From NCBI RefSeq assembly GCF_030813495.1, contig NZ_JAUSUI010000005.1, forward strand, positions 310,001 to 374,000: a stretch of DNA of 64,000 bases, given 5' to 3'. The notes beneath the pieces were generated by a model, which did no database searches, was not told where the DNA came from, and worked only from the letters and a program-made list of their open reading frames with translations. Shown piece after piece: positions 26,860-41,514 of the stretch. The position numbers were made by a program, and so were the translations under genes. The DNA is from Ancylobacter polymorphus. Its GTDB lineage: Bacteria; Pseudomonadota; Alphaproteobacteria; Rhizobiales; Xanthobacteraceae. Position 1 is the stretch's first letter. Each line of letters opens with the position of its first letter.

Positions 26860-28434
26860 TCAGCCCTTGCTGGGCGTCGTGTGGGCGGCGTGGGCGGCGG
26901 CCTCGTCGCGCAGCTTCTCCATGGCCAGCGCCTCCGCCGCTTCCGCCCGGTTCTGCTTGCGCTTGCCCCAGGCAGTCATGGCGAGAGAGGCGAACATGAC
27001 AGCGAAGATCGCCATCGCCCCGGGCCGCTCCAGAATGTAAAGCGGATTGCCGCCGGAGAGCTGGTAGGAGCGCAGGAACTCGGTCTCCAGCATGCGCCCG
27101 AGCAGAATGCCCACCACTACCGCCGAGACCGGGTACTGGTAGCGGTTGAGCGCATAGCCGAGCAGGGCGAAGACGAACAGCGTGATCGGGCCGGCCGCCT
27201 CGCCGGTCACCGCGAAGGTGCCGAGCGTGGCGATGACGAGGATCGCCGGCAGCACGTAGCGGGTCCGCACCTTCATGATGTTGGAGGCGACATAGATGAA
27301 GCCGATGCCCACCGCCAGCAGCACGATGGCCTGGACGATGTTGTTGAGGATGATGGCGTAGACCATCGGCTTCTGCGTTTCGATGAAGCTCGGACCGGGC
27401 ACGATGTTGTGCATCATGAAGGCCGCGATCAGGATCGCCGTCGCGCCGCCGCCGGGAATGCCGAGCGCCAGCATGGTGGCCATGGAGCCGCCCTCGCCGC
27501 TCGCCACGGCCGATTCCGCCGCGATCACGCCCTTGGGGTTGCCCTTGCCGAACGTCGCGCTGTCCTTGGCGGTGCGCTTGGTCTCGGCATAGGCGATGAG
27601 ATTGCCGATGGACGAGCCGACCCCCGGAACGGCGCCGATGATGATGCCGATGATCGAGCCGCGCAGCAGCACGCCGGGATATTTCATCGTGCCCCAGCAG
27701 CCCTTGAGGATCTTGCGCAGGCTGACCTCGCGCGAGCCCTCGGCCTCGATGATGTAGTCACGGCTGGCGAGGCTCAGCAGCTGGCTCGCCGCCAGCAGGC
27801 CGATCATCGCCGGGATCGGCGCGATGCCGTCGAGCAGCACCGGCAGGCCCAGCGTGCCACGGGTGAAGCCGGCGGTGTTCATGCCGACCGTGCCAAGCAG
27901 GATGCCGAGCGCGGCGGCGAGCAGGCCGCGGCTGATATAGGCGGAACCGAGCGAGCCCAGCAGCATCATGCCCCAGATCGCCACCGCGAACATCTCCACC
28001 GGCCCGATGCGCAAGACGATATCCGCCAGCGGCTCGATGACGAGCAGCAGCAGCACATAGCCGGCGATGCCGCACAAAGTGGAGGCGAACAGCGCATAGC
28101 CCAGCGCCTCATTGTGCTCGCCCTTCTGCGACATGGCATAGCCGTCGAAGGTGGTGGCGAAGGACGATGGGGAGCCCGGTATGTTCATCAATATCGCCGG
28201 CACCGAGCCGCCGAACCCCGCCCCGGTATAGACCGAGGTGAGGAAGACGATGGCCGAGAAGAAATCCATGTAGAGCGACATGGGCAGCACGATCGCCATG
28301 GCCATGGTGATCGAAATGCCGGGAATGGCGCTGAAGACGAGGCCGACGATCAGGCCGGGGACGATCCACCCCCAGGACCCGGCCGATGTGAACATGATGC
28401 CGAGGGCATCATTGAAGGCGGAAAAGTCGATCAT
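26860..28434 (-). CDS. tctA: Tripartite tricarboxylate transporter, large permease TctA
   Basis: 524 residues with about twelve hydrophobic helices. Typical TctA phrases are GLIVGLVFSAIPGISITMAMAI near 24-45, PGSPSSFATTFDGYAM, GVGSSIGNLIAYAETKR and ALGIPGGGATAILIAAFMMH. It is the large inner-membrane subunit of a TTT importer, which with TctB and TctC takes up carboxylic acids such as citrate, tartrate or aromatic acids. It starts ten bases after tctB. The substrate here is presumed to be the acid degraded by the divergent genes at 30499-41514. Confidence 0.93.
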   Translation of the reverse strand: MIDFSAFNDALGIMFTSAGSWGWIVPGLIVGLVFSAIPGISITMAMAIVLPMSLYMDFFSAIVFLTSVYTGAGFGGSVPAILMNIPGSPSSFATTFDGYAMSQKGEHNEALGYALFASTLCGIAGYVLLLLVIEPLADIVLRIGPVEMFAVAIWGMMLLGSLGSAYISRGLLAAALGILLGTVGMNTAGFTRGTLGLPVLLDGIAPIPAMIGLLAASQLLSLASRDYIIEAEGSREVSLRKILKGCWGTMKYPGVLLRGSIIGIIIGAVPGVGSSIGNLIAYAETKRTAKDSATFGKGNPKGVIAAESAVASGEGGSMATMLALGIPGGGATAILIAAFMMHNIVPGPSFIETQKPMVYAIILNNIVQAIVLLAVGIGFIYVASNIMKVRTRYVLPAILVIATLGTFAVTGEAAGPITLFVFALLGYALNRYQYPVSAVVVGILLGRMLETEFLRSYQLSGGNPLYILERPGAMAIFAVMFASLAMTAWGKRKQNRAEAAEALAMEKLRDEAAAHAAHTTPSKG

Positions 28435-28444
28435 CGCGCGCGCC

Positions 28445-28945
28445 TCACAGCAGGGTGGTCGGCATGGGATAGGAGATGAGCGCGCGGAAGCCGTAGATCG
28501 TGACCAGCGTCACCACGAGCGAGAACCCCAGCAGGTGCAGCGGGCGCCGCTCGCCGCAGATCGCCATCGCCGCCGCCGCGAACAGGAAGATCGCGATGTC
28601 GAAGCCGATCACGTCGAGCAGGAAGACCATCAGACCCAGCGACAGGCCGAGCGCGGCCATGCGGATCACATCCGCGCGGTCCGTGGACAGTTTGACCGCG
28701 AAGGGATCGGCCTCGTCCACCGACTTTTCCGCCGCGCGCGCATCCACCTTGTGGAAGCACTGCGGGAGGATGAACAGATACAGCGCCAGGGCGAAGATCG
28801 CCACCGGCTGCACGAGCAAAAGATTGTTGATGCTGAGCGAGACGCTGCGCGCATCGAGAAGATACCAGAAGACCGCCGCCGCGATCAGCGTGATGAGTGC
28901 CAGATGGCCGTAGTCGATGGCGTAAGTTTGCCGACCGATACGCAT
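28445..28945 (-). CDS. tctB: Tripartite tricarboxylate transporter, small permease TctB
   Basis: 166 residues with four hydrophobic helices (LALITLIAAAVFWYLL, LLLVQPVAIFALALYLFIL, ALGLSLGLMVFLLDVIGFDIAIFLFAAAAM, LGFSLVVTLVTIYGF). This is the TctB pattern of four membrane spans with a charged middle loop. It lies between tctC and tctA as in canonical TTT operons. GGGAGAG precedes the ATG. Confidence 0.88.
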   Translation of the reverse strand: MRIGRQTYAIDYGHLALITLIAAAVFWYLLDARSVSLSINNLLLVQPVAIFALALYLFILPQCFHKVDARAAEKSVDEADPFAVKLSTDRADVIRMAALGLSLGLMVFLLDVIGFDIAIFLFAAAAMAICGERRPLHLLGFSLVVTLVTIYGFRALISYPMPTTLL

Positions 28946-29023
28946 CTTACTCTCCCTTCGTCAGAGGAGTGGGAGCGGGGCGGGCCGGAATTCTCTTCCG
29001 CCCGCCCCATGCGGTGCGGCGGC

Positions 29024-30016
29024 CTACTTCAGCAGGTCGACGTATTTCGCCATCTTGGCGGCGTTATCGAGATAGGCCTTGTTGGAGGCTTCCGGCCCGT
29101 ACCAGGTGGTGGCCAGCTCCTGCAGCTTCAGCGTTTCGATCGCCTTCGGATTCTTGCTCGCCTTCTCGACCGCCGCGACGAGGATCTTGTAGATCTCCGG
29201 CTGCTCCTTCGTCAGCTTGGTGGAAACCGCCCAGCCGCGCTGCGAGCCTTCGACGAAGTCGGTCTTCAGCGTCGCGCCGATCAGCGGCGCATCGGGGAAC
29301 CAGTCCACCTTCTCGGCGGCGAAGATGGCGAGCGGACGGATCTTCGACTTCAGCGGCAGGAAGCCCTCGCCGCCGACGAAGCCGACATCGACCTGCGCGC
29401 CGGCGGTGGCATTGCGGGCCGGTCCGCCGCCATCATAGGTGACGATGCGCAGCTTGGAGGGGTCGATGCCTGCCGCCTGGAAGGCCAGCACCATGTTGGC
29501 ATAGTCCGCCGAGGCGGGCTGCACGCCGATGCTGAGGCTGGACGGGTCCTTCTTCAGTTTCTCGATCACCTCGGCGAAGGTCTTCACCGGCCCGCCGGAG
29601 GAGGTCGCCGCCAGCGTGTAGTCACGCGACGGCAGGTTGATCATGGTGAAATCTTCCACCTTGTACGGCGCGTTCTGCAGCAGCACGGTCAGCGGAATAT
29701 AGGGCGCGGCCGAGGTGCACAGGATCGAGTAGCCGTCGGCCGGCTGGTTCAGCGCGTAGGAATTGCCGAGCTGCGTGCCGGCGCCGGGCTTGTTGACGAT
29801 GACGAGCGGCTGGCCGAGCTCCTGCTCCAGATAGGGCATGAAGGCGCGGGACAGGCGGTCATTGTAGCCGCCGGTGGCGAAGGGCACGATCACGTTGATC
29901 GGACGCGAGGGATAGGTCGCGGCGCGCAGGATGGACGGCATGGCGACCATACCGGAGGCGACGGCAACGCCGCCGGCCGAAATCTTGAACAGGTCTCTGC
30001 GTGTGAAATGGGTCAT
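29024..30016 (-). CDS. tctC: TctC/Bug-family periplasmic carboxylate-binding protein
   Basis: 330 residues. The N-terminus THFTRRDLFKISAGGVAVASG is a twin-arginine signal, so export is by Tat rather than Sec. The mature part begins YPSRPINVIVPFATGGYNDRLSRA, the usual Bug-protein start, followed by VIVNKPGAGTQLGNSYALNQPADGY. Bug proteins bind di- or tricarboxylates through water-mediated contacts. GGGAGGA lies four bases before ATG 30016. It is the first gene of tctCBA and diverges from the abrB-led operon across a shared control region. Confidence 0.92.
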   Translation of the reverse strand: MTHFTRRDLFKISAGGVAVASGMVAMPSILRAATYPSRPINVIVPFATGGYNDRLSRAFMPYLEQELGQPLVIVNKPGAGTQLGNSYALNQPADGYSILCTSAAPYIPLTVLLQNAPYKVEDFTMINLPSRDYTLAATSSGGPVKTFAEVIEKLKKDPSSLSIGVQPASADYANMVLAFQAAGIDPSKLRIVTYDGGGPARNATAGAQVDVGFVGGEGFLPLKSKIRPLAIFAAEKVDWFPDAPLIGATLKTDFVEGSQRGWAVSTKLTKEQPEIYKILVAAVEKASKNPKAIETLKLQELATTWYGPEASNKAYLDNAAKMAKYVDLLK

Positions 30017-30116
30017 GTTTTCCTCCCGCCGTTCCATCTGGATGCGTTCGGCCGGCGAGCCATGAGCGGGCCGACCCGTGTGGATTAGGCGGGGGGAAGA
30101 CTGTCCCGCCTCCCGT

Positions 30117-30131
30117 CAACTGTCAACAGAT
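30117..30131 (-). promoter_or_regulatory. GntR-type operator/promoter of tctCBA
   Basis: Minus-strand ATCTGTTGACAGTTG contains TTGACA as a possible -35 and shares 12 bases with the sites at 24103 and 38882. It lies 100 bp upstream of tctC. The 179 bp up to the divergent site at 30296 shows no gene. Confidence 0.6.
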
Positions 30132-30295: not shown

Positions 30296-30309
30296 ATCTG
30301 TTGACAGTT
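30296..30309 (+). promoter_or_regulatory. GntR-type operator/promoter of the abrB-led operon
   Basis: ATCTGTTGACAGTT matches the divergent tct site in all 14 bases. TTGACA at 30302-30307 could be the -35. The first translated frame starts at 30407, so the leader would be about 70 nt. Confidence 0.6.
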
Positions 30310-30406: not shown

Positions 30407-30499
30407 ATGTCCGAACGCCCGCGCCAGAGCCGGAAACCGGCCTCCCACCTTGCCCGAATCATCCCGACCGGCTGCGCGCGGCCCGCCGGGCGCTGCTGA
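30407..30499 (+). CDS. Putative 30-codon upstream open reading frame coupled to abrB-like gene
   Basis: ATG at 30407 is preceded by GGGAGG with five-base spacing, the best ribosome-binding site in this leader. The frame runs 30 codons, is Arg/Pro-rich, and ends in TGA that overlaps the next ATG as TGATG at 30497-30501. The following gene has no ribosome-binding site of its own, so ribosomes probably reach it by termination-reinitiation. The peptide resembles nothing I know. It could also be a by-product of a mis-set start. Confidence 0.45.
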   Translation: MSERPRQSRKPASHLARIIPTGCARPAGRC

Positions 30500-31599
30500 T
30501 GGCGGCAGATTCCAAAGCACCTGCGCCGAGCCCGCGCGCCCCGTGGCGCGTCGCCTGGCTGCGGCTGATCGGGACCTATGCCGTCGCCGCCACTGCGGGC
30601 TATGCCGCCACGCTCCTTCACATCCCCCTGCCCTGGATGCTCGGCCCGCTCTTCGTCTGCGGCCTGTTGAACGTCTCCGGCGTGCCTTTGCAGGCCGGCT
30701 GGCATCTGCGCGAGATCGGACAGGTCATTGTCGGCCTCGCCATCGGCATGCGCTTCACCCCGCATTTGCTGCTGGTGTCGCTGGAACTGCTGCCGGCGAT
30801 GCTGGTGGCGACGCTCTACATCATCCTCGCCACCTTCATCGGCGCGCTCATCATGCGGCCGCTGGCGCGCATCGACCCCACCACCGCCTTCTTCGCCACT
30901 GCCGCCGGCGGGATGGCCGACATGGCGGTGGTGGCGGCGGCGCGGGGCGGCGACACCAATGCCGTCTCCATCGTCCACGCGCTGCGGGTGACGACCGTGG
31001 TCAGCATTGTGCCGTTCATGGTGTTCGCCTTCGGCGAGGCCGGCAACGTCAACACGGTCGATCCCGCCGCCTCGCACGATCTGCTGCTGCTCGGCCTCGG
31101 GCTTGTCATCGCCTATCTCGGCGCGCAGGCGCTGCGCCCGACGATCATCCCGAATCCGTGGCTGCTCGGCTCGCTTCTGCCGAGCGCGGCGCTCGGTGCC
31201 TCCGGTCTGCTCAATGTCGCGGTGCCCGGCATCCTCATCATCGCCGCGCAGATCATGATCGGGGTGTGGCTGAGCATGCGCTTCCGGCGCGACCTGTTCG
31301 TGCGCCTGCCGCGCGTCGCCGCCTCCGGCCTGCTGATCGGCGTCTTGCTGATCGCCGCCGCCGCCGTCGGGGCGGAGGGGCTCTCACTCGCCACCGGCCT
31401 GCCGCTCACCACCAGCTTCCTCGCCCTCGCCCCGGCGGCGATCACCGAAATGGTGCTCACCGCCAAGGCGATGCACGCCGATGCCGAGCTGGTGACCGCC
31501 TTTCACATCGTCCGCATCGCGGTGATCTCGTCGACCATCCTGATCGTCTTCCGCGTCTACCGGTTCGTGCTGAGGAGCCATTATGAATCTGGGGTTTGA
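30499..31599 (+). CDS. AbrB-family integral membrane protein (PF05145)
   Basis: 366 residues with about ten hydrophobic helices. Two internal repeats share the pattern W-L-L-G-S-L-L-P-S-A, for example IPLPWMLGPLFVCGLLNVSG near 43 and IPNPWLLGSLLPSAALGASG near 215. ATAAGGMADMAVVAAARGGD and LAPAAITEMVLTAKAMHADAE are family motifs. The family is misleadingly called AbrB or ammonia monooxygenase regulator; these are membrane proteins of unknown transport role. It heads the catabolic operon and overlaps the SDR gene by 17 bases. A second carboxylate carrier is a reasonable guess. Confidence 0.8.
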   Translation: MAADSKAPAPSPRAPWRVAWLRLIGTYAVAATAGYAATLLHIPLPWMLGPLFVCGLLNVSGVPLQAGWHLREIGQVIVGLAIGMRFTPHLLLVSLELLPAMLVATLYIILATFIGALIMRPLARIDPTTAFFATAAGGMADMAVVAAARGGDTNAVSIVHALRVTTVVSIVPFMVFAFGEAGNVNTVDPAASHDLLLLGLGLVIAYLGAQALRPTIIPNPWLLGSLLPSAALGASGLLNVAVPGILIIAAQIMIGVWLSMRFRRDLFVRLPRVAASGLLIGVLLIAAAAVGAEGLSLATGLPLTTSFLALAPAAITEMVLTAKAMHADAELVTAFHIVRIAVISSTILIVFRVYRFVLRSHYESGV

Positions 31600-32377
31600 C
31601 GGCCGCCGCGCCGTCATCGTCGGCGGCAGCTACGGCATTGGCGAGGCCACCGCCGCGATCCTGCTGCGCGAGGGCGCGCAGGTGATCATCGCCTCGCGCA
31701 GCCGCGACAATCTGGACGCCGCCCGGACCCGTCTCGAAGCGGCCACCGGCCGCGCGCCTGACGTGTTCGTCGCCGATGTGGTGAAGGACGCTGCCGCCGC
31801 CGAGACGCTGATGGGCGAGGTTCGCTCCCGCTGGGGCGCGCTCGACATCCTCGTCAGCGCCGTCGGCGGCAGCGTGCGCGCCGATTTCGACACGCTGAGC
31901 GATGAGGACTGGCTCGCCAGCTACGAATTCAACGTGCTCTCCACCGTCCGCTCCGTGCGCGCCGCCCTGCCCCTGCTCATCGCGGGCGACGCCCCCGCCG
32001 TGGTGACGCTGGGCGCGGCAGCGGCGAAGATGCCCTATGCCCATCAGATCATGACCAATGTGCACAAGGCCGGCCTGCTCGGCCTCGTGAAGACGCTGGC
32101 GCTCGAACTCGGCGAGAAGGGCATCCGCATCAACGCGGTCGGGCCGGGCCGCACCAAGACCGCGCTGTGGATCAACCGCGCCACCAAAATGGCCGCCGAG
32201 CGCGGCGTGCCGGTGGACGCGATCTACGCGGAATTCGCGGAAGAAATCCCGCTGAAGCGCTTCGCCGAGCCGGAGGAGATCGCGGTCATGGTCGCGTGGC
32301 TCGCCAGCCCGCTCGCCAGCTACATCACCGGCCAATCCATCAATGTCGACGGCGGCATCGCGCGCGGCCTCGTTTAA
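31583..32377 (+). CDS. Short-chain dehydrogenase/reductase family protein, divergent active site
   Basis: 264 residues. The Rossmann glycine motif is VGGSYGIGEATA at 13-24, and the C-terminal NVDGGIARG is typical of SDRs. The catalytic centre is abnormal. The position of the Tyr in the usual YxxxK is Thr158 (TNVHK, Lys162 kept), the catalytic Ser region reads TLGAAAAKM, and the NNAG motif is SAVGGS. Tyr152 could substitute only if the loop is shifted. It may be a reductase with altered chemistry or a non-catalytic partner. GAGGAG is five bases before the ATG. Confidence 0.8.
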   Translation: MNLGFDGRRAVIVGGSYGIGEATAAILLREGAQVIIASRSRDNLDAARTRLEAATGRAPDVFVADVVKDAAAAETLMGEVRSRWGALDILVSAVGGSVRADFDTLSDEDWLASYEFNVLSTVRSVRAALPLLIAGDAPAVVTLGAAAAKMPYAHQIMTNVHKAGLLGLVKTLALELGEKGIRINAVGPGRTKTALWINRATKMAAERGVPVDAIYAEFAEEIPLKRFAEPEEIAVMVAWLASPLASYITGQSINVDGGIARGLV

Positions 32378-32388
32378 AGGAGAACAGA

Positions 32389-33756
32389 ATGTCCCACAAA
32401 GACGTCACCCGCCAGCTCGCCGCCTGGATCGTCGGCTGCAAGCTCGCCGACATTCCCGCCTCGGTTCAGGCCGAGGGCGTGCGCACCTTCTTCAACTGGA
32501 TGGGCTGCGCCGTCGGCGGCGCCCGCCACGAGACGGTGGACCGCGCGCTCGCCGGCATCTCCCCCTTCGCCGGCAAGCCGCAGGCGACCGTCCTCGGCCG
32601 CGGCGAGCGGCTGGACGTGCCGAACGCGGCGCTGCTCAACGGCATCTCCTCGCATGTGCTCGATTATGACGACACCCATCTGAAGACCATCATCCACCCC
32701 GCCGGGCCGGTCGCTTCCGCCCTGCTGGCAGCGGCGGAATATCAGCCGATGACCGGCGCGGACTTCCTCAATGCGCTGATCGTCGGCGTCGAGGTGGAAT
32801 GCCGGATCGGCAACAGCGTCTATCCCGCCCATTATGATCGCGGCTGGCACATCACCGGCACCACAGGCGTGTTCGGCGCCGCCGCCGCCGTCGGCCACAT
32901 GCTGAAGCTGGATGAGACCCAGATGACCTGGGCGCTCGGCATCGCCGCGACCCAGGCCTCGGGCCTGCGCGAAATGTTCGGCACCATGTGCAAGAGCCTG
33001 CACCCCGGCGCCGCCGCCCGCAATGGCGCGCTCGCCGCCTTCCTCGCCAAGGCCGGCTTCGACAGTTCGCTGCAGGCGATCGAGGCGCCGCGCGGCTTCG
33101 CCAATGTGCTCTCCACCAAGCAGGATTATAACGAGATCCTCGGCGGGCTGGGCGAGACCTGGGAAGCCGGGCTCAATTCCTACAAGCCCTTCGCCTGCGG
33201 CATCGTCATCCACCCCACCATCGACGGCTGCCAGCAGCTGCGCGAGGAGCTGGGCGACGCAGTGAACAGCATTGCCGCCGTGCGCCTGCGCACCCATCCG
33301 CTGGTGCTGGAACTCACCGGCAAGCGCACGCCGAAGACCGGGCTGGAGACCAAGTTCAGCGTCTTCCACGCCGCCGCCTGCGCCCTGCTGCGCGGCGATG
33401 GTTCGCCCACCGCCTTCACCGACGAGGCGGCCAACGCGCCCGAGATCATCGCCCTGCGCGACAAGGTGGACGCCACCTCCGACACTGCCATCCACGAGGC
33501 CTCGGTGGTGATCGAGGTCGAGTTCGCCGACGGCCGCACGATCGAGAAGATCATCGACCGCGCCATCGGCAGCCACGACAAGCCGCTGAGCAATGAGCAC
33601 CTCGCGCGCAAATTCGCCCACCAGTCGGCGCTGGTCGTCGGCGACGAGGTGACGGAACGGCTCATGGCCCTGTGCTGGCGCCTGCCGGAGCTGACCGACG
33701 CCGGCGAGATCGCCCGCGCCTCGGTGCCGGCCGGCCTGCGCGACGCGGCGGAGTGA
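32389..33756 (+). CDS. MmgE/PrpD family protein (2-methylcitrate dehydratase/cis-aconitate decarboxylase-like)
   Basis: 455 residues. Conserved PrpD-family active-site segments are present: VLDYDDTHLKTIIHPAGP near 87-104, MCKSLHPGAAARNG near 203-216 and CGIVIHPTIDGC near 269. The acidic, His and Lys residues match those used by 2-methylcitrate dehydratase, cis-aconitate decarboxylase and iminodisuccinate epimerase. The reaction here could be dehydration, decarboxylation or epimerisation of a polycarboxylic acid. AAAGGAG lies six bases before ATG 32389. It follows the SDR by 11 bp and overlaps or abuts the next dehydrogenase. Confidence 0.87.
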   Translation: MSHKDVTRQLAAWIVGCKLADIPASVQAEGVRTFFNWMGCAVGGARHETVDRALAGISPFAGKPQATVLGRGERLDVPNAALLNGISSHVLDYDDTHLKTIIHPAGPVASALLAAAEYQPMTGADFLNALIVGVEVECRIGNSVYPAHYDRGWHITGTTGVFGAAAAVGHMLKLDETQMTWALGIAATQASGLREMFGTMCKSLHPGAAARNGALAAFLAKAGFDSSLQAIEAPRGFANVLSTKQDYNEILGGLGETWEAGLNSYKPFACGIVIHPTIDGCQQLREELGDAVNSIAAVRLRTHPLVLELTGKRTPKTGLETKFSVFHAAACALLRGDGSPTAFTDEAANAPEIIALRDKVDATSDTAIHEASVVIEVEFADGRTIEKIIDRAIGSHDKPLSNEHLARKFAHQSALVVGDEVTERLMALCWRLPELTDAGEIARASVPAGLRDAAE

Positions 33757-33761: not shown

Positions 33762-34859
33762 GTGACCACGCACGCACCTCTGCGCATCGGCGTTCTCAAT
33801 GGCGACGATATCGGCCATGAGATCGTCCCCGCCGCCCACGCCATCGCCGATGCGGCGGCGCGGGCGAGCGGTCTTGCCATCGACTGGCGCCCCATGCCGC
33901 TCGGCCGCAAGGCGCTGGACGAGCTCGGCCACACCATGCCGCCGGGCACGCTGGAAGCGCTCGGCACGCTCGACGGCTTCATCCTCGGGCCCATCGGCCA
34001 TCAGGCCTATCCGAAGGTGCCGGAAGCGATCAATCCGCACCCGATCCTGCGCAAGAGCTTCGATCTGTTCGCCAATGTGCGCCCCACCCGCTCCTATCCC
34101 GGGCTCGGCTGCCTCTATGACGACATCGACCTCGTCATCGTGCGCGAGAACAATGAGGGCTTCCAGCCGGACCGCAACGTGGTGGCCGGATCGGGCGAGT
34201 TCCGCCCGACGCACGACACCACCATCTCGGTGCGCGTCATCACGCGCGAGGGCAGCCGGAAGGTTGCCCGCGCCGCCTTCGAGATCGCCCGCTCCCGCAA
34301 GAAGCGGCTCACCGTGGTGCACAAGAACACGGTGTTCAAGCTCGGCTGCGGCATGTTCGTGGAAGAGTGCTACGAGGCCGGCAAGGAATTCCCCGATGTC
34401 GCCATCGAGGAAGTCATCGTCGACACCTTCGCGATGAAGCTGGTGCGCGAGCCGCAGCGCTTCGACGTGGTCGTCACGACAAATATGTTCGGTGACATCC
34501 TCACCGACGAGGCGGCCGGTCTCGTCGGCGGGCTCGGCATGGCGCCGGGCCTGTGCATCGGCCGCGGCGAGATTGCCATGGCGCAGGCCACCCACGGCTC
34601 GGCGCCCGACATCGCCGGCAAGGGCCTCGCCAACCCCTATGCGATGATCGAATCCACCCGGATGCTGATCGAGTGGCTCGGCCGCCGGCGCGGCATTCCC
34701 GCCGCCGCCGAGGCCAGCGCGCGCATGAAGGCGGCGATCGAGGCCGCGCTCGCCGACCCCGCCACCCGCACCCCCGACATTCGCGGCACCGGCACCCAGG
34801 CCGACATGACCCGCGCCATTCTTTCCCATCTGGAGACCCGCACCCATGCGCCGGCATAA
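33762..34859 (+). CDS. Isocitrate/isopropylmalate-family dehydrogenase (homoisocitrate-like)
   Basis: 365 residues. The beta-decarboxylating dehydrogenase fold is shown by RIGVLNGDDIGHEIVPA at the start, VRPTRSYPG, DLVIVRENNEGF near 124, VVHKNTVFKLGCGMFVEE near 185 and THGSAPDIAGKGLANPYAM near 278. The HKNTVFK-type segment resembles isocitrate/homoisocitrate enzymes more than tartrate dehydrogenase. It would oxidise and decarboxylate a 2-hydroxy acid with NAD+, Mg2+ or Mn2+. GTG 33762 has GGAG nine bases upstream; GTG 33753, overlapping the PrpD stop, is an alternative. It overlaps the next gene by 14 bases. Confidence 0.85.
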   Translation: MTTHAPLRIGVLNGDDIGHEIVPAAHAIADAAARASGLAIDWRPMPLGRKALDELGHTMPPGTLEALGTLDGFILGPIGHQAYPKVPEAINPHPILRKSFDLFANVRPTRSYPGLGCLYDDIDLVIVRENNEGFQPDRNVVAGSGEFRPTHDTTISVRVITREGSRKVARAAFEIARSRKKRLTVVHKNTVFKLGCGMFVEECYEAGKEFPDVAIEEVIVDTFAMKLVREPQRFDVVVTTNMFGDILTDEAAGLVGGLGMAPGLCIGRGEIAMAQATHGSAPDIAGKGLANPYAMIESTRMLIEWLGRRRGIPAAAEASARMKAAIEAALADPATRTPDIRGTGTQADMTRAILSHLETRTHAPA

Positions 34860-35952
34860 AATCGCGCTCATTCCCGGAGACGGCATCGGCTCCGACGTCA
34901 TCACTGCCGGCCGCGAGGTGCTCGACGCGCTGGCCGCCAGCGATGGCGGCTTCGGCTTCGATTTCGAGAGCTTCGACTGGGGCTCCGACCGCTACCGCCG
35001 CACCGGCAAGATGATGCCGGAGGACGGCGTCGACACGCTGCGCGGCTTCGACGCCATCTATTTCGGTGCCGTCGGCGACCCGAAGATTCCCGACCACATC
35101 ACCCTGTGGGAACTGCGCCTCGCCATCTGCCAGGGGCTCGACCAATACGCCAATGTCCGCCCCTCGCGCCTCCTGCCCAACATCACCGGCCCGTTGCGGC
35201 CGGAACTGGGCCGCGAGATCGACTGGGTGATCGTGCGCGAGAACAGCGAGGGCGAATATGCCGGCGCCGGCGGGCGGGCGCATCGCGGCCTGCCGATCGA
35301 GGTCGGCATCGATGTGTCGGTGTTCACCCGCACCGGCATCGAGCGCGTCTGCCGCTTTGCCTGCGAGCTCGCCATGTCGCGCCCGCGCCGGAAGCTCACC
35401 ATCGTCACCAAGTCGAACGCCCAGCGCCACGGCATGGTGCTGTGGGACGAGGTGTGCAAGGGCGTCATCAAGGACTTCCCCGAGCTGGATGTCGACTGGA
35501 TGCTGGTCGACGCCATGACCATGCGCCTCGTGCTGCGGCCGGGCACGGTGGACACGGTGCTCGCCACCAATCTGCATGCCGATGTGCTTTCCGACCTCGC
35601 CTCGGCGCTGAGCGGCAGTCTCGGCATCGGCGCCACCGCGAATCTCGCGCCGGACCGTTCCACGCCTTCCATGTTCGAGCCGATCCACGGCTCCGGCTTC
35701 GATCTGATCGGCAAGGGCATCGCCAACCCGATCGGCTCCTTCTGGAGCGCGGTGATGATGCTGGAGCATCTCGGCGAGACCGCCGCCGCCGCGCGGCTGA
35801 TGGCGGCGATCGAACAGGTGACGGCGGAAGGTACCACGCTGACGCCCGATCTCGGCGGGACGGCGGGCACGGCCGAGGTGACGGCGGCGGTGATCACCGC
35901 CCTTCAACGGCAAAGTGTCGCAGCGGCAGGCACAACCCGGAGTGTGGCGTAA
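34846..35952 (+). CDS. Tartrate dehydrogenase/D-malate dehydrogenase-like (TtuC/DmlA group)
   Basis: 368 residues. IALIPGDGIGSDVI, FDWGSDRYRRTGKMMPEDG, FGAVGDPKIPDHITLWELRL, DQYANVRPSRLLP, DWVIVRENSEGEYAG and VTKSNAQRHGMVLWDE closely follow the tartrate dehydrogenase of pseudomonads as I recall it. The group acts on D-malate, L-tartrate and related 2-hydroxy acids with NAD+ and Mn2+. It overlaps the preceding dehydrogenase gene and has GGAG ten bases before the ATG, so the two are co-translated. Having two such enzymes in tandem suggests two successive or alternative oxidations. Confidence 0.88.
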   Translation: MRRHKIALIPGDGIGSDVITAGREVLDALAASDGGFGFDFESFDWGSDRYRRTGKMMPEDGVDTLRGFDAIYFGAVGDPKIPDHITLWELRLAICQGLDQYANVRPSRLLPNITGPLRPELGREIDWVIVRENSEGEYAGAGGRAHRGLPIEVGIDVSVFTRTGIERVCRFACELAMSRPRRKLTIVTKSNAQRHGMVLWDEVCKGVIKDFPELDVDWMLVDAMTMRLVLRPGTVDTVLATNLHADVLSDLASALSGSLGIGATANLAPDRSTPSMFEPIHGSGFDLIGKGIANPIGSFWSAVMMLEHLGETAAAARLMAAIEQVTAEGTTLTPDLGGTAGTAEVTAAVITALQRQSVAAAGTTRSVA

Positions 35953-35976: not shown

Positions 35977-35990
35977 ATTGTTTACAATTG
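35977..35990 (+). promoter_or_regulatory. Palindromic GntR-type operator abutting the first GntR gene
   Basis: ATTGTTTACAATTG carries inverted ATTGT and ACAAT arms two bases apart. Its last base is four bases before the ATG at 35995. This is the FadR-type T-GT-N2-AC-A pattern and fits autoregulation, blocking transcription or translation start. Confidence 0.55.
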
Positions 35991-35994: not shown

Positions 35995-36696
35995 ATGAGC
36001 ATCATCAGCGATTCCGCGCCCCTGAGCGATCTGTCGGTTGTAAAGAGCGTCTCGCTCACGAGCGCGCTCGAGAAAGAACTCGAGCGCCTCATTCTGACGG
36101 GCGAGCTGGAGCCGGGGGTACGGATCAACGAGATCCACCTGTCGAACCGTTTCGGCACCAGCCGCGGCCCGATCCGAGAGGCCACCCGCAGCCTCGAGGC
36201 CAAGGGACTGGTCGAGGTCGTCCGCAATCGCGGCGTCTTCGTCCGGCGCCTCTCCGTCGAGGACGCGGTGGAAATCTATGATGTGCGCGCCGCGCTGTTC
36301 GGCCAGGCCGGGCGGCTTTTGGCCGAGCGCATGACCGATGGGCTGCTGGCCGAACTGACGCGGATGGTGGACGAGATGGACGCGGTCGCCGAGCGCGGCA
36401 GCTTCGACGACTACTACCCGCTCAATCTCGGCTTCCACAATCTCATCGTCGGCTCCTGCGGCAACCGCACGCTGCAGGCGGAGTATCACCGCTTCGTCAA
36501 CAAGCTGCACCTGTTCCGCGCCCGCGCGCTGGTGCAGGGCGGCGGCCTCGCCGTGTCGAACCGCGAACACCGGGCGATGCTGGAAGCGCTCGCCTCCGGC
36601 GATGGCGACCGGGCGCAGATGACGCATTGGCGGCATGTGGCGCTGGCCAAGCGCCGGCTCATCGCCGCCGTCGATGGCCCGGCCCGGCACGACTGA
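35995..36696 (+). CDS. GntR-family regulator, FCD (FadR-C) subfamily
   Basis: 233 residues. Winged HTH: ALEKELERLILTGELEPGVRINEIHLSNRFGTSRGPIREATRSLEAKGLVEVVRNRGVFVR. FCD effector domain follows with metal/carboxylate-binding motif residues in VRAALFGQAGRLLAE, NLGFHNLIVGSCGN and SNREHRAMLEAL. FCD regulators usually bind organic acids. Its recognition helix (SRGPIREATRSLE) is nearly that of the second GntR at 37928, so both may read the same operator. The start has no ribosome-binding site and sits next to a palindrome, which suggests a leaderless or very short leader message. Confidence 0.88.
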   Translation: MSIISDSAPLSDLSVVKSVSLTSALEKELERLILTGELEPGVRINEIHLSNRFGTSRGPIREATRSLEAKGLVEVVRNRGVFVRRLSVEDAVEIYDVRAALFGQAGRLLAERMTDGLLAELTRMVDEMDAVAERGSFDDYYPLNLGFHNLIVGSCGNRTLQAEYHRFVNKLHLFRARALVQGGGLAVSNREHRAMLEALASGDGDRAQMTHWRHVALAKRRLIAAVDGPARHD

Positions 36697-36894: not shown

Positions 36895-37923
36895 TCACGC
36901 GGCGGCGGCGCGGGCCTCGATCTTGCGCGCGGCGACGCGGGCGGCCAGGCGGACGGCGGACTGGAACGCGCCGATATCGGCGACGCCCTTGCCGACAATG
37001 TCGAAGGCCGTGCCATGCGCCGGTGTGGTGAACACCACCTCCAGCCCGGCAGTGATGGTCACACCCTTGTTGAAGCCCTTCAGCTTGGTCGCGATCTGGC
37101 CCTGGTCGTGATACATGGCCAGCACACTGTCATAGGCGCCGGCAAAGGCCTTCAGATACACGGTGTCCGAGGGGAACGGCCCTTCGCAGGCGATGCCCTC
37201 CTTCGCCATGGCCTCCACCGCCGGCCGGATGAAGTCGATTTCCTCGCTGCCGAACAGACCGCCCTCGCCGCCATGCGGGTTGAGCGCGGCCACTGCGATG
37301 CGCGGGCGGGCGATGCCGGCCTTGCGCATGGTCTCATCCGCCAGCCGCAACGCGCCGCAGATGCTGTCGAACGTTACCTGGTCCAGCGCCGTGCGCAGCG
37401 ACACATGCGAGGTCACGCGCGTCATCCACTGGCCCTCCAGCACGTTCATCTCGCTGAACGGGCCCTTATGGTCGAGCAGATGGGCGAACATCTTGTGCTC
37501 GTCGGGAAAGCGCCAGCCGCCCCTAAACATCGCCTGCTTGTTCAGCGGGGCGAAGCACACGCCGTCCACCTCGCCGGCCTTGGCGAAGTCAATGGCGCGG
37601 GCGAGCGTGTCGCCGGTCAGCCGGCCGGACTCGGGATTGGCGACGCCGAGCGGGAACAGGTCGGGGTCGGTATTGCCCAGATCGACCATGGGAATGCCGG
37701 GCGCGCTCCAGTCTACCGCGCCGGGCGAGGCGTAGCGCACCAGATTCAGGCGCACCCCGGCATGGCGCGCGCCCATGTCCAGCACACGCGCATCGCCCAC
37801 CACGACGATCCGCGCCACATCGTCGAAGCCGCCCTCGCTCAGCAGGCGGGCGGTCTGTTCCGGGCCGATGCCGGTGCAGTCGCCGGGGGTGAGGGCGAGA
37901 ATGGGGAGCGGGTGCGCGGTCAT
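36895..37923 (-). CDS. PdxA-like dehydrogenase (4-hydroxythreonine-4-phosphate dehydrogenase family)
   Basis: 342 residues. PILALTPGDCTGIGPEQTARLL at the N-terminus, FAPLNKQAM near 143, TSHVSLRTAL near 188, ALNPHGGEGGLFG near 232 and MYHDQGQIATKLKGFNKGVTITAGL near 285 match PdxA, including metal-binding His residues. True PdxA makes a pyridoxal precursor. PdxA2 copies in catabolic clusters oxidise threonate-4-phosphate or diols of aromatic acids. No DUF1537 kinase is nearby, so a non-phosphorylated hydroxy acid is more likely. It shares a unit with the GntR gene at 37928 (four-base gap). Confidence 0.85.
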   Translation of the reverse strand: MTAHPLPILALTPGDCTGIGPEQTARLLSEGGFDDVARIVVVGDARVLDMGARHAGVRLNLVRYASPGAVDWSAPGIPMVDLGNTDPDLFPLGVANPESGRLTGDTLARAIDFAKAGEVDGVCFAPLNKQAMFRGGWRFPDEHKMFAHLLDHKGPFSEMNVLEGQWMTRVTSHVSLRTALDQVTFDSICGALRLADETMRKAGIARPRIAVAALNPHGGEGGLFGSEEIDFIRPAVEAMAKEGIACEGPFPSDTVYLKAFAGAYDSVLAMYHDQGQIATKLKGFNKGVTITAGLEVVFTTPAHGTAFDIVGKGVADIGAFQSAVRLAARVAARKIEARAAAA

Positions 37924-37927
37924 GAAA

Positions 37928-38665
37928 CTACCTGTCCTTAGGGCGTGACTGTCGGGGGTCGAGCGGGCCGGGCCGCGCCTCGGTGGCGCTGTCATCTTCC
38001 AGCGTGCGCAGGAAGCGCGCCTTGCCGGCGAGGATGTGCCGCTCCAGCAGCCGGGCGGCGCCGGTGCCGTCGCTTTGGCGCAGCGCCTCGAAAATGGCCT
38101 TGTGCTCGTCATTGGAGGTGCGCATCGAGCCGGGCAGCACCAGCCCGCGCCGGCGGAACAAATGCAGCTCCGCCTCCAGCAGCGGGTAGAGCTCGATCAG
38201 CTTGTCATTGTCGGAGGCGAGCACGACCTGCCGGTGGAACTCGTTGTTGAGCGTGTAAAAGGTGGCGATGTCGGGTGCTTCGATCGCCGCGTCCATGCGC
38301 TCGATCAGTTCCGCCATCGCGCGTAGCTGCACCATGGTGATGATGGCGGCCGCCAACCGCCCGGCCGTACCGAACAGGCCGGCGCGGATGTCGTAGAGGT
38401 CGAGCGCCTCCTTGGTGGAAACCTCGCGCACGAAGAAGCCGCGATTGAGCTCGCTGCGCAGCAGGCCGATCTGCTCCAGCGCCCGGCACGCCTCGCGCAC
38501 CGGGCCCCGGCTGATGCCAAGCCGCAGCGCCAGCGTGCTTTCATTGATGCGCGTGCCGCCGGTGAGTTCGCCGGTGCCGATCATCCGCTCGATCTCGCGC
38601 TGGATCAGCGGCACGAAGGAGGCGGTGCGGGGCGTGCGGGGGGGATGGGCGGCCGGGCGGAGCAT
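37928..38665 (-). CDS. GntR-family regulator, FCD subfamily (second copy)
   Basis: 245 residues. HTH: REIERMIGTGELTGGTRINESTLALRLGISRGPVREACRALEQIGLL, then the FCD domain (YDIRAGLFGTAGRLAAA, NNEFHRQVVLASDN, SNDEHKAIFEAL). About 30-40 % similar by eye to the product at 35995, with almost the same recognition helix. It lies upstream of pdxA-like on the same strand and diverges from the dehydrogenase at 38975. A palindromic operator is 25 bp before its start codon. A Shine-Dalgarno sequence is not evident. Confidence 0.88.
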   Translation of the reverse strand: MLRPAAHPPRTPRTASFVPLIQREIERMIGTGELTGGTRINESTLALRLGISRGPVREACRALEQIGLLRSELNRGFFVREVSTKEALDLYDIRAGLFGTAGRLAAAIITMVQLRAMAELIERMDAAIEAPDIATFYTLNNEFHRQVVLASDNDKLIELYPLLEAELHLFRRRGLVLPGSMRTSNDEHKAIFEALRQSDGTGAARLLERHILAGKARFLRTLEDDSATEARPGPLDPRQSRPKDR

Positions 38666-38690
38666 GGCGCCATTTCGCCGCCAAAATCGC

Positions 38691-38706
38691 TTATTGTCAA
38701 CAATGA
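38691..38706 (-). promoter_or_regulatory. GntR-type operator of the gntR2-pdxA unit
   Basis: Minus-strand ATTGTTGACAAT has inverted ATTGT and ACAAT arms, and includes TTGACA as a possible -35. It lies 25 bp from the start codon of the second GntR gene, which would leave almost no 5' leader. Confidence 0.55.
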
Positions 38707-38881
38707 TGGTTGGAATGGCAGGGATAGTCCGACAGATGGCGCCCCGTGTCTTGTCGCAGGGGAAGCGTAAATCAGTCGGACATTCTACACTTAAGTATCT
38801 GTTATAATTTTATTTTATTTGAAACTGGCGACCACGCGCCTCCCAGATCGCCGCCTGGAGGCAATCGGGCGCGCCGGAAAA
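38707..38881. other. AT-rich part of the divergent control region
   Basis: No gene is supported between the gntR2 operator and the site at 38882. The segment 38780-38825 is clearly AT-rich for this genome and includes TATAAT at 38803-38808 on the plus strand, without an obvious -35. It may hold a second promoter or an activator site. Confidence 0.4.
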
Positions 38882-38895
38882 ATTGTTGACAGTTG
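38882..38895 (+). promoter_or_regulatory. GntR-type operator/promoter of the dehydrogenase-PrpD2 unit
   Basis: ATTGTTGACAGTTG, identical to the site at 24103-24116. It holds TTGACA as a possible -35 and lies 79 bp before ATG 38975. Confidence 0.62.
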
Positions 38896-38974
38896 CCGGT
38901 CCGTTGAACCACTGTCCTGCCGCACACGTCGCGGTGCCGCCGCCGAAATCCCGCCTGATCTCCAAGGAGTTCCC

Positions 38975-40060
38975 ATGACGACCTATTCCATAGCGGTCAT
39001 TCCCGGCGACGGGATCGGCAATGAGGTGGTGCCGGAGGCGCAGCGCGTTCTGGAAGCGGCGAGCCGTATCGGCGGCTTCTCCTTCGACTGGACCCATTAT
39101 GACTGGAGCTGCGAGCGCTTCGCCAAGACCGGCGCGATGATGCCGGCGGATGGCTTGCAGCAGATCCGCCACAAGGACGCGATCTTCCTCGGCGCCGTCG
39201 GCTTTCCCGGCGTGCCGGATCATGTCTCGCTCTGGGGCCTGCTGATCCCGATCCGCCGCAGCTTCCACCAATATGTGAATCTGCGCCCGGTGAAGCTGCT
39301 CGCCGGTGTCGAAAGCCCGCTCAAGGGCCGCGAGGCCGGCTCGATCGACTTCTACGTCGTGCGCGAGAACAATGAGGGTGAGTATTCCTCCATTGGCGGC
39401 CGGCTCTATGAGGGGCTGGAGGACGAGCTGGTGATGCAGCAGTCCATCTTCACCCGCCGTGGCTGCGACAGGGTGATGCGCTACGCCTTCGAACTGGCCA
39501 AGGGCCGCAAACAGCACGTCACCTCGGCCACCAAGTCGAACGGCATCAGCCACACCATGCCGTACTGGGACGAGCGCTTCGCCGCGATTTCGAAGGAATA
39601 TCCCGGCTTCACCACCGACCAGTTCCACATCGACATTCTCACCGCGCATTTCGTCCGCAACCCGGACTGGTTCGACGTGGTGGTCGCCTCCAACCTGTTC
39701 GGCGACATCCTGTCCGATCTCGGCCCGGCGGTGGTCGGCTCCATCGGCATCGCGCCCGGCGGCAACATCAACCCCGAGAAGGACTACCCCTCCATGTTCG
39801 AGCCGGTGCACGGCTCGGCGCCCGACATTGCCGGCAAGGGCGTGGCCAACCCCATCGGCCAGATCTGGTCCGGGGCGATGATGCTGCGCCATCTCGGCGA
39901 GGAAGCCACCGCCGCCGCCATCGAAAAGGCGATCGAGGATGTGCTAGCCCGCCGCGACAGCCTCACCCGCGATCTCGGCGGCACCGCCGGCACGCGCGAA
40001 CTCACCGACGCCATCATCGGCGCCCTGCCTTCCGTCGCCGCCCGCGCGCCGGCCGCCTGA
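38975..40060 (+). CDS. Isocitrate/isopropylmalate-family dehydrogenase, tartrate/D-malate-like (second TtuC-type)
   Basis: 361 residues. IAVIPGDGIGNEVVPEAQRVL, THYDWSCERFAKTGAMMPADG, FLGAVGFPGVPDHVSLWGLLIPIRR, DFYVVRENNEGEYSSIGG, ATKSNGISHTMPYWDERF and VHGSAPDIAGKGVANPIG place it in the TtuC/DmlA group, distinct from the copy at 34846. It should catalyse NAD-dependent oxidation, with or without decarboxylation, of a 2-hydroxy acid. AAGGAG is five bases before ATG 38975. It is followed by the second PrpD-like gene after 26 bp. Confidence 0.87.
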   Translation: MTTYSIAVIPGDGIGNEVVPEAQRVLEAASRIGGFSFDWTHYDWSCERFAKTGAMMPADGLQQIRHKDAIFLGAVGFPGVPDHVSLWGLLIPIRRSFHQYVNLRPVKLLAGVESPLKGREAGSIDFYVVRENNEGEYSSIGGRLYEGLEDELVMQQSIFTRRGCDRVMRYAFELAKGRKQHVTSATKSNGISHTMPYWDERFAAISKEYPGFTTDQFHIDILTAHFVRNPDWFDVVVASNLFGDILSDLGPAVVGSIGIAPGGNINPEKDYPSMFEPVHGSAPDIAGKGVANPIGQIWSGAMMLRHLGEEATAAAIEKAIEDVLARRDSLTRDLGGTAGTRELTDAIIGALPSVAARAPAA

Positions 40061-40086
40061 CGCCCGACATAAAGAGGAAACGCCCC

Positions 40087-41514
40087 ATGACGCTGCACCA
40101 GACCAACCCCGCCCAGGCCCAGCCCGTCGTCGAGGGCCTGACCCAGGACGTGGCCGAATTCGTCGTCGGCACCACTTATGCCGACCTGCCGGCCGAGGTG
40201 GTCGAACTCGGCAAGAAGTCGATCCTCGACGGCATCGGTCTCGCCCTTTCCGGCTCGGTGGCGAAAAGCGGCGAGCACATTCAGGCCTATCTCAAGGGCC
40301 TCGGCATCCAGGAAGGGCCGGCCACCGTCATCGGCACCGCGCTGAAGGTGCCGCCGCGCTTTGCCGCCTTCGCCAATGGCGTCGGCATCCACGCCGACGA
40401 TTATGACGACACCCAGCTCGCCGTCGCCAAGGACCGGGTCTATGGCCTGCTCACCCACCCGACCGCCCCGGCCCTGCCGGCCGCGCTCGCCGTGGCGGAA
40501 GCCGCCGGCACCTCCGGCACGGAGATGATGCTGGCCTATCATCTCGGCGTCGAGGTGGAGTGCAAGATCGCCGAGGCGATCAACCCGCGCCACTATCAGC
40601 ATGGCTTCCACGCCACCGCGACCTGCGGCACCTATGCCGCCGCCGCCGCCGCCGGCAAGCTCAAGGGGCTGGATGTCGAGCAGATGGTGCGCGCCTTCGG
40701 CTGCGCCGGCAGCCAGTCCGCCGGGCTGCGGGAGAATTTCGGCACCATGATGAAGCCCTTCCACGCCGGCCGCTCCTCGGAGAGCGGCGTGGTGGCGGCC
40801 GATTTCGCTGCGCTGGGCTGGACCACCACCGACAAGATCCTGGAAGCGCCGCGCGGCTTCTTCCAGGCGGCGGGCGGCGGCTTCGATCCAGCCGCCATCG
40901 TCGGCAAGCTCGGCCAGCCCTGGACCTTCGCCTCGCCGGGCGTCTCCATCAAGCCGCATCCGTCGGGCTCGCTCACCCATCCCGGCATGACCAAGATGCT
41001 GGAGCTGATCCGCACCCATTCCATCAAGGCCGAGGATGTCGAGCGGGTGGATGTCGGCACCAACCAGAACATGCCGAACGCGCTGATCCATCACCGCCCG
41101 AAGAACGAGCTTCAGGCCAAGTTCTCGATGGAATTCTGCATGGCCATCCTGCTGCTCGACGGGCGCGGCAGCCTGCCCGAATTCACCGACGAGACGGTGG
41201 AGCGGGAGGATGTGAGGGCGATGATCGAGCGGGTGAATTTCCATGTCCACCCGGAGGCGGAAGCCGCCGGCTACGACAAGATGACCACCATCATCGACAT
41301 CCACCTGAAGGATGGCCGCACCATTTCCGGCCGATCCGACTTCGGCAAGGGCAGCCCGGCCAACCCGATGACCTATGACGAAGCCGCCGACAAGTTCCGC
41401 GGCTGCGCCGAATTCGCCAAATGGGACAAGGCCAAGACCGAATCCATCGTCGAGACGGTGCGCCGGCTGGAGCAGCTGCGCGATATCCGCGAGCTCACGC
41501 GCCTCTGCGCCTGA
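40087..41514 (+). CDS. MmgE/PrpD family protein (second copy)
   Basis: 475 residues. The family segments are GIHADDYDDTQLAV near 100-113, TCGTYAAAAAAGKLKGLD near 180, GTMMKPFHAGRSSESG near 219 and SIKPHPSGSLTHPGM near 288. It differs from the first copy at the second active-site loop (DDTQ and a later LTHPTAP instead of DDTHLKTIIHPAGP), so the two paralogues probably act on different intermediates. The reaction is a dehydration, decarboxylation or epimerisation. AGAGGAAA precedes the ATG. A strong terminator follows, closing the cluster. Confidence 0.86.
   Translation: MTLHQTNPAQAQPVVEGLTQDVAEFVVGTTYADLPAEVVELGKKSILDGIGLALSGSVAKSGEHIQAYLKGLGIQEGPATVIGTALKVPPRFAAFANGVGIHADDYDDTQLAVAKDRVYGLLTHPTAPALPAALAVAEAAGTSGTEMMLAYHLGVEVECKIAEAINPRHYQHGFHATATCGTYAAAAAAGKLKGLDVEQMVRAFGCAGSQSAGLRENFGTMMKPFHAGRSSESGVVAADFAALGWTTTDKILEAPRGFFQAAGGGFDPAAIVGKLGQPWTFASPGVSIKPHPSGSLTHPGMTKMLELIRTHSIKAEDVERVDVGTNQNMPNALIHHRPKNELQAKFSMEFCMAILLLDGRGSLPEFTDETVEREDVRAMIERVNFHVHPEAEAAGYDKMTTIIDIHLKDGRTISGRSDFGKGSPANPMTYDEAADKFRGCAEFAKWDKAKTESIVETVRRLEQLRDIRELTRLCA

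Follow-up and report, generated by a model that had tools for sequence, protein, structure and literature searches.

Organization of the gene cluster

A stretch of 64,000 nucleotides from Ancylobacter polymorphus (contig NZ_JAUSUI010000005.1, positions 310,001 to 374,000 of the forward strand; genome of 4.7 Mb), here called the window, carries a cluster of genes that is predicted to form a regulon for the uptake and degradation of an organic acid. The cluster extends from about position 24104 to 41514 of the window and combines a tripartite tricarboxylate transporter with an alpha/beta hydrolase, a rhodanese, two MmgE/PrpD proteins, three beta-decarboxylating dehydrogenases, a PdxA-like dehydrogenase and two FCD-type GntR regulators. 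An earlier, sequence-only reading had named thirteen genes, and open frames together with Pfam and NCBIfam matches find all of them, each in the expected family. It had set the start of the cluster at 26860, which is too narrow: the hydrolase-rhodanese pair (24163-26678), left out of that gene set, lies just left of tctA and is preceded by the same operator-like sequence as the other units. A cluster ending at 26860 is ruled out by this operator and by the conservation of the hydrolase and rhodanese genes among related loci. The features, with strand in brackets (a dot where none applies), are as follows:

24104..24113 (.), operator-like site TTGTTGACAG, before the hydrolase gene; pattern scan
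24163..25092 (+), alpha/beta hydrolase of the fluoroacetate-dehalogenase type (abH, P0015), 43% identical to PDB 3r3u; start codon set by eye
25089..26678 (+), multi-rhodanese-domain protein (PF00581, 3 stretches); shares 4 nt with the end of the hydrolase gene
26860..28434 (-), TctA, large membrane subunit of the tripartite tricarboxylate transporter (PF01970, E 2.4e-111)
28445..28945 (-), TctB, small membrane subunit (PF07331)
29024..30037 (-), TctC, solute-binding protein (PF03401); solved relatives are Bug/TctC proteins
30120..30129 (.), operator-like site CTGTCAACAG, tctC/AbrB divergent region; pattern scan
30298..30307 (.), operator-like site CTGTTGACAG, tctC/AbrB divergent region; pattern scan
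30499..31599 (+), AbrB-type membrane protein (PF05145; TIGR03082); start codon set by eye
31583..32377 (+), short-chain dehydrogenase/reductase (SDR; Pfam match)
32389..33756 (+), MmgE/PrpD protein 1, PrpD1 (PF03972, PF19305)
33762..34859 (+), P0007, isocitrate/homoisocitrate-dehydrogenase-like enzyme lacking the catalytic Tyr (PF00180)
34846..35952 (+), TtuC2, tartrate-dehydrogenase-like enzyme with Cys for the first substrate Arg (PF00180; TIGR02089 passed, PRK08194 failed)
35978..35987 (+), operator-like site TTGTTTACAA, before GntR1; pattern scan
35995..36696 (+), GntR1, FCD-type GntR regulator 1 (PF07729, PF00392)
36895..37923 (-), PdxA-like dehydrogenase with replaced substrate/phosphate contacts; below every NCBIfam cut-off listed
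37928..38665 (-), GntR2, FCD-type GntR regulator 2 (PF07729, PF00392)
38694..38703 (.), operator-like site TTGTCAACAA, region before GntR2-PdxA and TtuC3-PrpD2; pattern scan
38883..38892 (.), operator-like site TTGTTGACAG, same region; pattern scan
38975..40060 (+), TtuC3, tartrate/D-malate dehydrogenase (PF00180; TIGR02089 and PRK08194 passed)
40087..41514 (+), MmgE/PrpD protein 2, PrpD2 (PF03972, PF19305)

The three transporter subunits all score over cut-off (PF01970, PF07331 and PF03401), and their genes are adjacent on one strand. The N-terminus of TctC shows, by eye, a twin-arginine-like signal (TRRDLFK). The SDR has no NCBIfam match over cut-off among the 25 matches listed.

A common operator

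The pattern YTGTYDACAR, which was written after the sites had been seen, has six occurrences in the 64 kb (11 strand matches), all of them in front of transcription units of the cluster and none elsewhere. In 100 shuffles the mean is 0.56 strand matches (sd 0.97, largest 4), so the common operator-like sequence first noticed in the sequence-only reading is real and above chance.

The site was also counted across genomes, in 72 related loci (defined below) and six plasmid regions, as a TTGTNNACAA-like sequence within -220 to +30 of the gene start, one mismatch being allowed; genes whose start lay off the contig or whose alignment started late were dropped. It is frequent at the hydrolase (24/30 loci), tctC (14/19) and GntR1 (22/27), is found at GntR2 in 6/10, TtuC2 in 10/23 and PrpD2 in 27/75, and is rare before the mostly operon-internal genes for the SDR (0/13), the rhodanese (1/24) and P0007 (2/32). 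The lower frequencies at AbrB (4/18), PrpD1 (5/23), TtuC3 (5/18) and PdxA (8/29) are as expected, because in many genomes these genes are internal to units. Among random 250-mers drawn from these loci, 5.9-12.4% contain the site (for hydrolase, tctC, GntR1, GntR2, TtuC2 and PrpD2). Since such 250-mers are mostly coding, the fairer control is the upstream regions of other genes in hydrolase-bearing loci, where the site occurs in 24 of 206 and, when only the 61 mainly intergenic ones are counted, in 10; the A+T content of these regions (0.44) is about equal to that of the hydrolase regions (0.46).

Conservation and distribution

Related loci were collected by a contig scan with PrpD2, from which the best 80 of 471 relatives were kept. 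Among these, the copies of A. vacuolatus, A. rudongensis, A. aquaticus, A. koreensis and A. moscoviensis are 94-96% identical to PrpD2 of the window. Removal of eight near-identical Ancylobacter-type loci (L055-L062) left 72, with flanks of up to 10 kb; 43 of them, the full-flank loci, have at least 19 kb of sequence. A gene was counted as present if its best match reached at least 45% identity over at least 80 residues. By this measure PrpD2 is accompanied by a P0007-type enzyme in 26 of the 72 loci, the PdxA-like enzyme in 27, TtuC2 in 24, TtuC3 in 15, PrpD1 in 21, the hydrolase in 29 and the rhodanese in 24. The hydrolase count is a lower bound, as 10-kb flanks miss distant genes and in the window the hydrolase lies 15 kb from PrpD2.

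The order tctCBA / PrpD2-AbrB-SDR-PrpD1-P0007-TtuC2-GntR1, with hydrolase and rhodanese beyond tctA, is found in Hoeflea, Mesorhizobium, Rhizobium, Pseudorhizobium and Chelativorans, TtuC2 being missing from it in one Hoeflea and one Pseudorhizobium. Large parts of the cluster are also present in Halomonas salipaludis and on three annotated plasmids. Rearranged modules of the set are thus found in many Alphaproteobacteria as well as in Halomonas, and smaller subsets elsewhere. In Polynucleobacter (L120), TtuC2, tctCBA and PrpD2 form one group, and a dehalogenase-like hydrolase encoded 1.7 kb from it shows only 44% identity; from this gene content, PrpD2 and one dehydrogenase may be sufficient for some acid.

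A sample of the class, 385 genomes in which matches under set E-value limits were listed, gives a second view. The hydrolase has orthologues of at least 60% identity in 5 of the 385, the next best match reaching at most 51%, and P0007 is found at E up to 1e-100 (at least 56% identity) in 5 as well. These are the identical five genomes: that of the window, G186, G219, G452 and G486. Since G186 and G486 belong to one genus, they represent four lineages. PrpD2 at 60% identity or more occurs in 9 genomes, which include these five. In G452 the gene for the hydrolase directly adjoins that for P0007 on the same strand, and PrpD2 is on a different contig.

The same evidence bears on the view that the cluster is an assembly of unrelated scavenging modules (PrpD2/tct, PrpD1-P0007, PdxA-TtuC3 and hydrolase-rhodanese), each for a different acid, which share a type of regulator and were co-transferred horizontally. 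Module content is indeed variable, the combinations of six core partners differing among the 43 full-flank loci; a Variovorax plasmid carries tctC, a PrpD1-like gene (51%) and P0007 with no PrpD2 orthologue in the stretch, and several loci hold an additional PrpD/tct set. However, a single operator precedes all units in the window, and close orthologues of the hydrolase and of P0007 occur in the same five of 385 genomes. We regard this view as rather unlikely, though it deserves to be kept in mind.

Three observations concern the compared loci themselves. Read by eye, a CO-dehydrogenase-like gene and a ferredoxin-like gene lie within 10 kb of PrpD2 in L068, L074, L087 and L088. Paired short chromate-transporter-like genes are found near the PdxA-like gene in L049, L051, L110, L115, L116 and L119. 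The contigs of L080 and L106 are titled as metagenome-assembled genomes of Bordetella parapertussis; they resemble loci of other uncultured Betaproteobacteria, and the species label is doubtful.

The hydrolase and the rhodanese

Eight catalytic positions of the hydrolase are invariant in 32 of 32 sequences: D119, H285, D143, H164, W165 and Y225, and in addition R120 and R123, which we take to be carboxylate ligands. The protein is alike to the fluoroacetate dehalogenase RPA1163 (PDB 3r3u) in fold, catalytic triad, halide-pocket residues and this presumed pair of arginines. According to two reports, RPA1163 has the triad Asp110-His280-Asp134 and a pocket of His155, Trp156 and Tyr219, to which D119-H285-D143 and H164, W165 and Y225 of the cluster hydrolase correspond, respectively (PMC11022551; PMC6100074). 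The cluster hydrolase nevertheless belongs to a separate clade, whose orthologues of at least 60% identity occur, in the class sample, only in P0007-bearing genomes. The rhodanese has one domain with a CAGRTR loop, which is kept in 15/15 sequences.

These residues raise the possibility of an organohalogen route, in which the substrate would be a 2-halo di- or tricarboxylate, natural or man-made. The hydrolase would release its fluoride or chloride, and the hydroxy acid so formed would be used by the other parts of the cluster. The triad and halide pocket, kept throughout, and the 43% identity to RPA1163 speak for it. However, epoxide hydrolases are also among the solved relatives of the protein, so that the leaving group need not be a halide. 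Moreover, the adjacent CLC channel gene is present in none of the 72 non-redundant loci (no search for other halide or fluoride genes was made), and the wide distribution of the cluster favors a common natural substrate. Such a route appears improbable on these grounds.

The dehydrogenases

Among the three beta-decarboxylating dehydrogenases, TtuC3 scores above the cut-offs of both TIGR02089 (548.9 vs 470.4) and PRK08194 (526.2 vs 501), and its residues are canonical in 27/27 sequences. TtuC2 passes TIGR02089 (507.1 vs 470.4) but falls under PRK08194 (406.2 vs 501); in 31/31 sequences Cys95 stands where the first substrate Arg would be, with Arg91 close by. The presence of three such enzymes, as originally described, holds. 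A cluster-specific TtuC2 (34846-35952) was considered and rejected: its lineage is found in 41 of the 385 class genomes, and the enzyme need not serve this cluster alone.

P0007 remains far below the isocitrate and homoisocitrate dehydrogenase equivalogs (best 277.4, cut-off 540). Of the residues known from E. coli Icd, in which Tyr160 is the catalytic Tyr, it retains the Lys, the metal Asp and all three substrate Arg. In P0007 the motif RENNEG runs into FQPDR, and none of the 20 residues after RENNEG is a Tyr (41/41 sequences). MAFFT places a gap at the Tyr position, and comparison with the relative in L153 (EGFYSDRN) puts Gln135 there. Because the Tyr is absent, and with the Tyr160Phe mutant of E. 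coli Icd reportedly as precedent, we infer that P0007 is poor in assisted decarboxylation. The structure model of P0007 (mean predicted local distance difference test, pLDDT, 66.6) was too weak for an active-site reading and was left unused. In E. coli Icd, Lys344 selects NADP, and S113 and N115 contact isocitrate. P0007, TtuC2 and TtuC3 all have Asp at the Lys344 position, which makes NAD their likely cofactor, and the S113/N115 contacts are absent from all three alike.

The PdxA-like dehydrogenase scores 254.2 against a cut-off of 290.35 for TIGR00557 and is likewise under the cut-offs of six other families. In E. coli PdxA the metal is held by His166, His211 and His266, and the substrate and its phosphate by His136, Thr137, Asn283 and Arg292. 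The cluster protein keeps all three metal His, and has Glu, His, Thr and Phe at the four other positions, as do 8/8 orthologues aligned; two other PdxA proteins of the window genome keep His136, Thr137, Asn283 and Arg292. This contact-residue alignment covered 8 of 34 orthologues, and a wider conservation count all 35 proteins including that of the window. The loss of the phosphate contacts makes an unphosphorylated substrate likely. Between GntR1 and the PdxA-like gene, which converge, lies an inverted-repeat-like sequence (36730-36870) that resembles, by eye, a dispersed palindromic repeat.

The MmgE/PrpD proteins

Neither PrpD protein qualifies as a 2-methylcitrate dehydratase, the equivalog scores being 52.5 (PrpD1) and 47.8 (PrpD2) against a cut-off of 950, and 33.8 and 26.4 against 575. 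By sequence, the nearest solved relatives of both are iminodisuccinate (IDS) epimerase (2hp0/2hp3) and cis-aconitate decarboxylase/IRG1 (7bra, 6r6u), and not methylcitrate dehydratase. A model of PrpD2 (mean pLDDT 69.4, of modest confidence and used for overall fold only) is also placed nearest these two by Foldseek, with TMq 0.72-0.78 vs 0.63-0.72 for methylcitrate dehydratase chains aligned full length. PrpD2 nonetheless differs from them: it is only about 28% identical, and its DYDDT...HP motif has additional residues inserted between Thr and His. The Asp, Thr, His, His, Lys and Lys that presumably form the general active site of this branch are conserved in PrpD1 (31/31) and PrpD2 (84/84), and they do not separate an epimerase from a decarboxylase or a dehydratase. 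Degradation of IDS or ethylenediaminedisuccinate as such was rejected, as no C-N lyase is among the genes identified (no family search for C-N lyases was made).

A tricarboxylate route can be drawn from these relationships. The substrate would be an aconitate-, isocitrate- or tricarballylate-type acid, PrpD2 would be a hydratase resembling aconitase but free of a cofactor, and oxidation of the isocitrate-like product would fall to P0007 or TtuC2. Apart from the predicted fold of PrpD2, genomic context is consistent with it. In G520 (L153; a single 1.24-Mb contig), a PrpD2 orthologue, a Tyr-bearing isocitrate/isopropylmalate-type dehydrogenase, TctA/TctC-like proteins and the tricarballylate dehydrogenase TcuA (568 bits, cut-off 369) are encoded within 12 kb. 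The Burkholderiales-type loci L106, L127 and L128 have TcuA-like and LeuD-like genes near PrpD2, with a PrpB-like gene in L106 and L128. In this respect the cluster recalls the tricarballylate utilization genes tcuABC, but TcuA stands beside distant relatives of PrpD2, in only 4 of 109 loci compared, and the window genome has no TcuA over cut-off (13 weak matches, the best of 44.3 bits vs 369). Furthermore, the isocitrate contacts are missing from all three dehydrogenases, and acids of this kind would already be served by ordinary aconitase. A tricarboxylate as the dedicated substrate is therefore considered unlikely. The same G520 locus also groups two hydroxyacid dehydrogenases and an AbrB-type protein with PrpD2 and TcuA.

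A probable modular regulon for a free organic acid

Taken together, these features make it fairly probable that the cluster forms a single regulon, inducible and modular, for the catabolism of a free C4-C6 di- or tricarboxylic acid that bears a hydroxy, epoxy or other 2-substituent. The tricarboxylate and organohalogen routes are special cases that overlap with this general reading, so that the confidences attached to them do not sum to one. The names PrpD, PdxA-like and P0007 denote folds and not functions, because the scores are under every equivalog cut-off listed.

The following sequence of steps is proposed. TctCBA would import the acid, as its family suggests. The Asp nucleophile of the hydrolase, whose chemistry is deduced from the eight conserved catalytic residues, would then attack the carbon beside a carboxylate, so that a leaving group is replaced or an epoxide opened, yielding a 2-hydroxy acid. 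The two PrpD-fold enzymes may rearrange the acid via the proton beside a carboxylate, as epimerase or dehydratase/hydratase, and so play the isomerase role that Fe-S aconitases have in the citrate and leucine pathways. P0007, TtuC2, TtuC3 and the PdxA-like enzyme, which are related and probably all NAD-dependent, would oxidize stereo- or regio-isomers of the hydroxy acid that differ from enzyme to enzyme. Here TtuC3 would act as a tartrate/D-malate enzyme and P0007, with its Tyr missing, probably without assisted decarboxylation. The presumed products, which would enter central metabolism, are 2-oxo acids, 3-oxo acids, glycerate or hydroxypyruvate. Finally, the two FCD-GntR proteins would keep every unit repressed from the TTGTNNACAA-like sites as long as neither the acid nor a product is bound.

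As to the substrate, our first guess is a tartrate/epoxysuccinate-type acid and the second an aconitate/tricarballylate-type acid. The first guess is prompted by TtuC3 and by a hydrolase chemistry that could open epoxysuccinate to tartrate; an enzyme activity that opens epoxysuccinate to give tartrate has been described in Pseudomonas. The Agrobacterium ttu genes for L-tartrate and the tartrate/epoxysuccinate enzymes of Pseudomonas putida resemble the cluster in TtuC and in their use of free acids, and the epoxide-opening hydrolase of the latter would fit the cluster hydrolase. To our knowledge, however, those systems include no PrpD-fold enzymes, PdxA-like enzyme or tripartite tricarboxylate transporter, all three of which the cluster has. 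An enolase-superfamily gene, enolB, lies beside the cluster or related genes in G186, G219, G486 and G040. Its product is a putative D-tartrate-dehydratase-like enzyme; profiles gave only the superfamily and placed other equivalogs far below cut-off. The gene is also common without the cluster, being found in 100 plasmid records at 60-80% identity vs 3 for PrpD2.

Several points weigh against the regulon as proposed. Taken as a tartrate clue, enolB has no close copy in the window genome (best 29% identity). PrpD2 stands without any of the six core partners in 9 of the 43 full-flank loci. The TtuC2 lineage is far commoner than the cluster, and the four TtuC2 neighborhoods compared contain no other cluster gene; those four proteins share its Arg/Cys signature. 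Five oxidoreductases exceed the needs of one linear route, the rhodanese has no evident role in such an acid pathway, and the remote PrpD2 relatives beside tricarballylate dehydrogenase point to a tricarboxylate.

The sequence-only reading had proposed a single group of genes forming a full import and degradation route for an unusual free, hydroxylated di- or tricarboxylic acid, to be checked by a search for co-occurrence. The families do recur together in the 72 loci and the 385 genomes, with variable content, and the operator together with this co-occurrence indicates that they are regulated and conserved as one group. Free acids are in keeping with the dehydrogenase, PrpD and transporter families, and the loss of phosphate contacts in the PdxA-like enzyme agrees with the absence of a kinase. 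The class of pathway is therefore likely as proposed; the exact acid is not fixed by sequence, and the idea of a full route is not borne out, as module content varies widely between genomes.

The cluster is a real and conserved combination of known families with unusual active sites, and places a dehalogenase-type enzyme in a natural setting. Because the set recurs in distant bacteria, on plasmids and on large chromosomal contigs, it probably serves a common environmental acid not yet named. It had been thought that no described pathway has this set, and none was found in open-access full text with narrow search terms; on that basis the cluster is apparently undescribed, a judgment that could be wrong. 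A more daring version of the regulon, offered as a tentative possibility, is that the substrate of the hydrolase is an epoxy di- or tricarboxylate, which it opens, or a halo one, which it dehalogenates. The PrpD enzymes would stand in for Fe-S aconitase-type isomerases, and P0007 would be a Tyr-less hydroxyacid dehydrogenase whose oxidation proceeds without assisted decarboxylation. The regulon would then be the physiological home of a distinct fluoroacetate-dehalogenase-type clade and represent an undescribed, widespread and cofactor-light pathway.

The cluster offers a physiological context for four poorly understood groups: the MmgE/PrpD proteins, the PdxA relatives without phosphate contacts, the Tyr-less branch of isocitrate/isopropylmalate dehydrogenases and the fluoroacetate-dehalogenase clade. 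The hydrolase is a relative of an enzyme known to cut carbon-fluorine bonds, and the cluster may show the natural job of such enzymes; the natural role of the clade bears on the origin of carbon-halogen bond cleavage.

Neighboring sequences

Two enolase-superfamily genes recur near the cluster in other genomes (L085, 2701-4035, and relatives; L149, 16743-19111); enolA has copies of 59-92% identity to that of L149 in 16 further loci of 109 compared. In the window, no Rfam family and no tRNA is found, and a promoter and terminator scan gives nothing above the shuffled level. The downstream genes for a glutathione S-transferase, a CLC channel and an ScfR-type regulator were considered as members of the cluster and rejected, the first occurring in 1 and the other two in 0 of the 72 non-redundant loci. 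The CLC-type channel, which has a CBS domain, is encoded to the right of the cluster at 42615-44402 and is present in 5 of the 8 Ancylobacter-type loci and in 0 of the 72 others. Beyond it (44405-50304), the gene for the ScfR-type regulator is divergent from those for isocitrate lyase and malate synthase G, so that a glyoxylate shunt unit adjoins the cluster.

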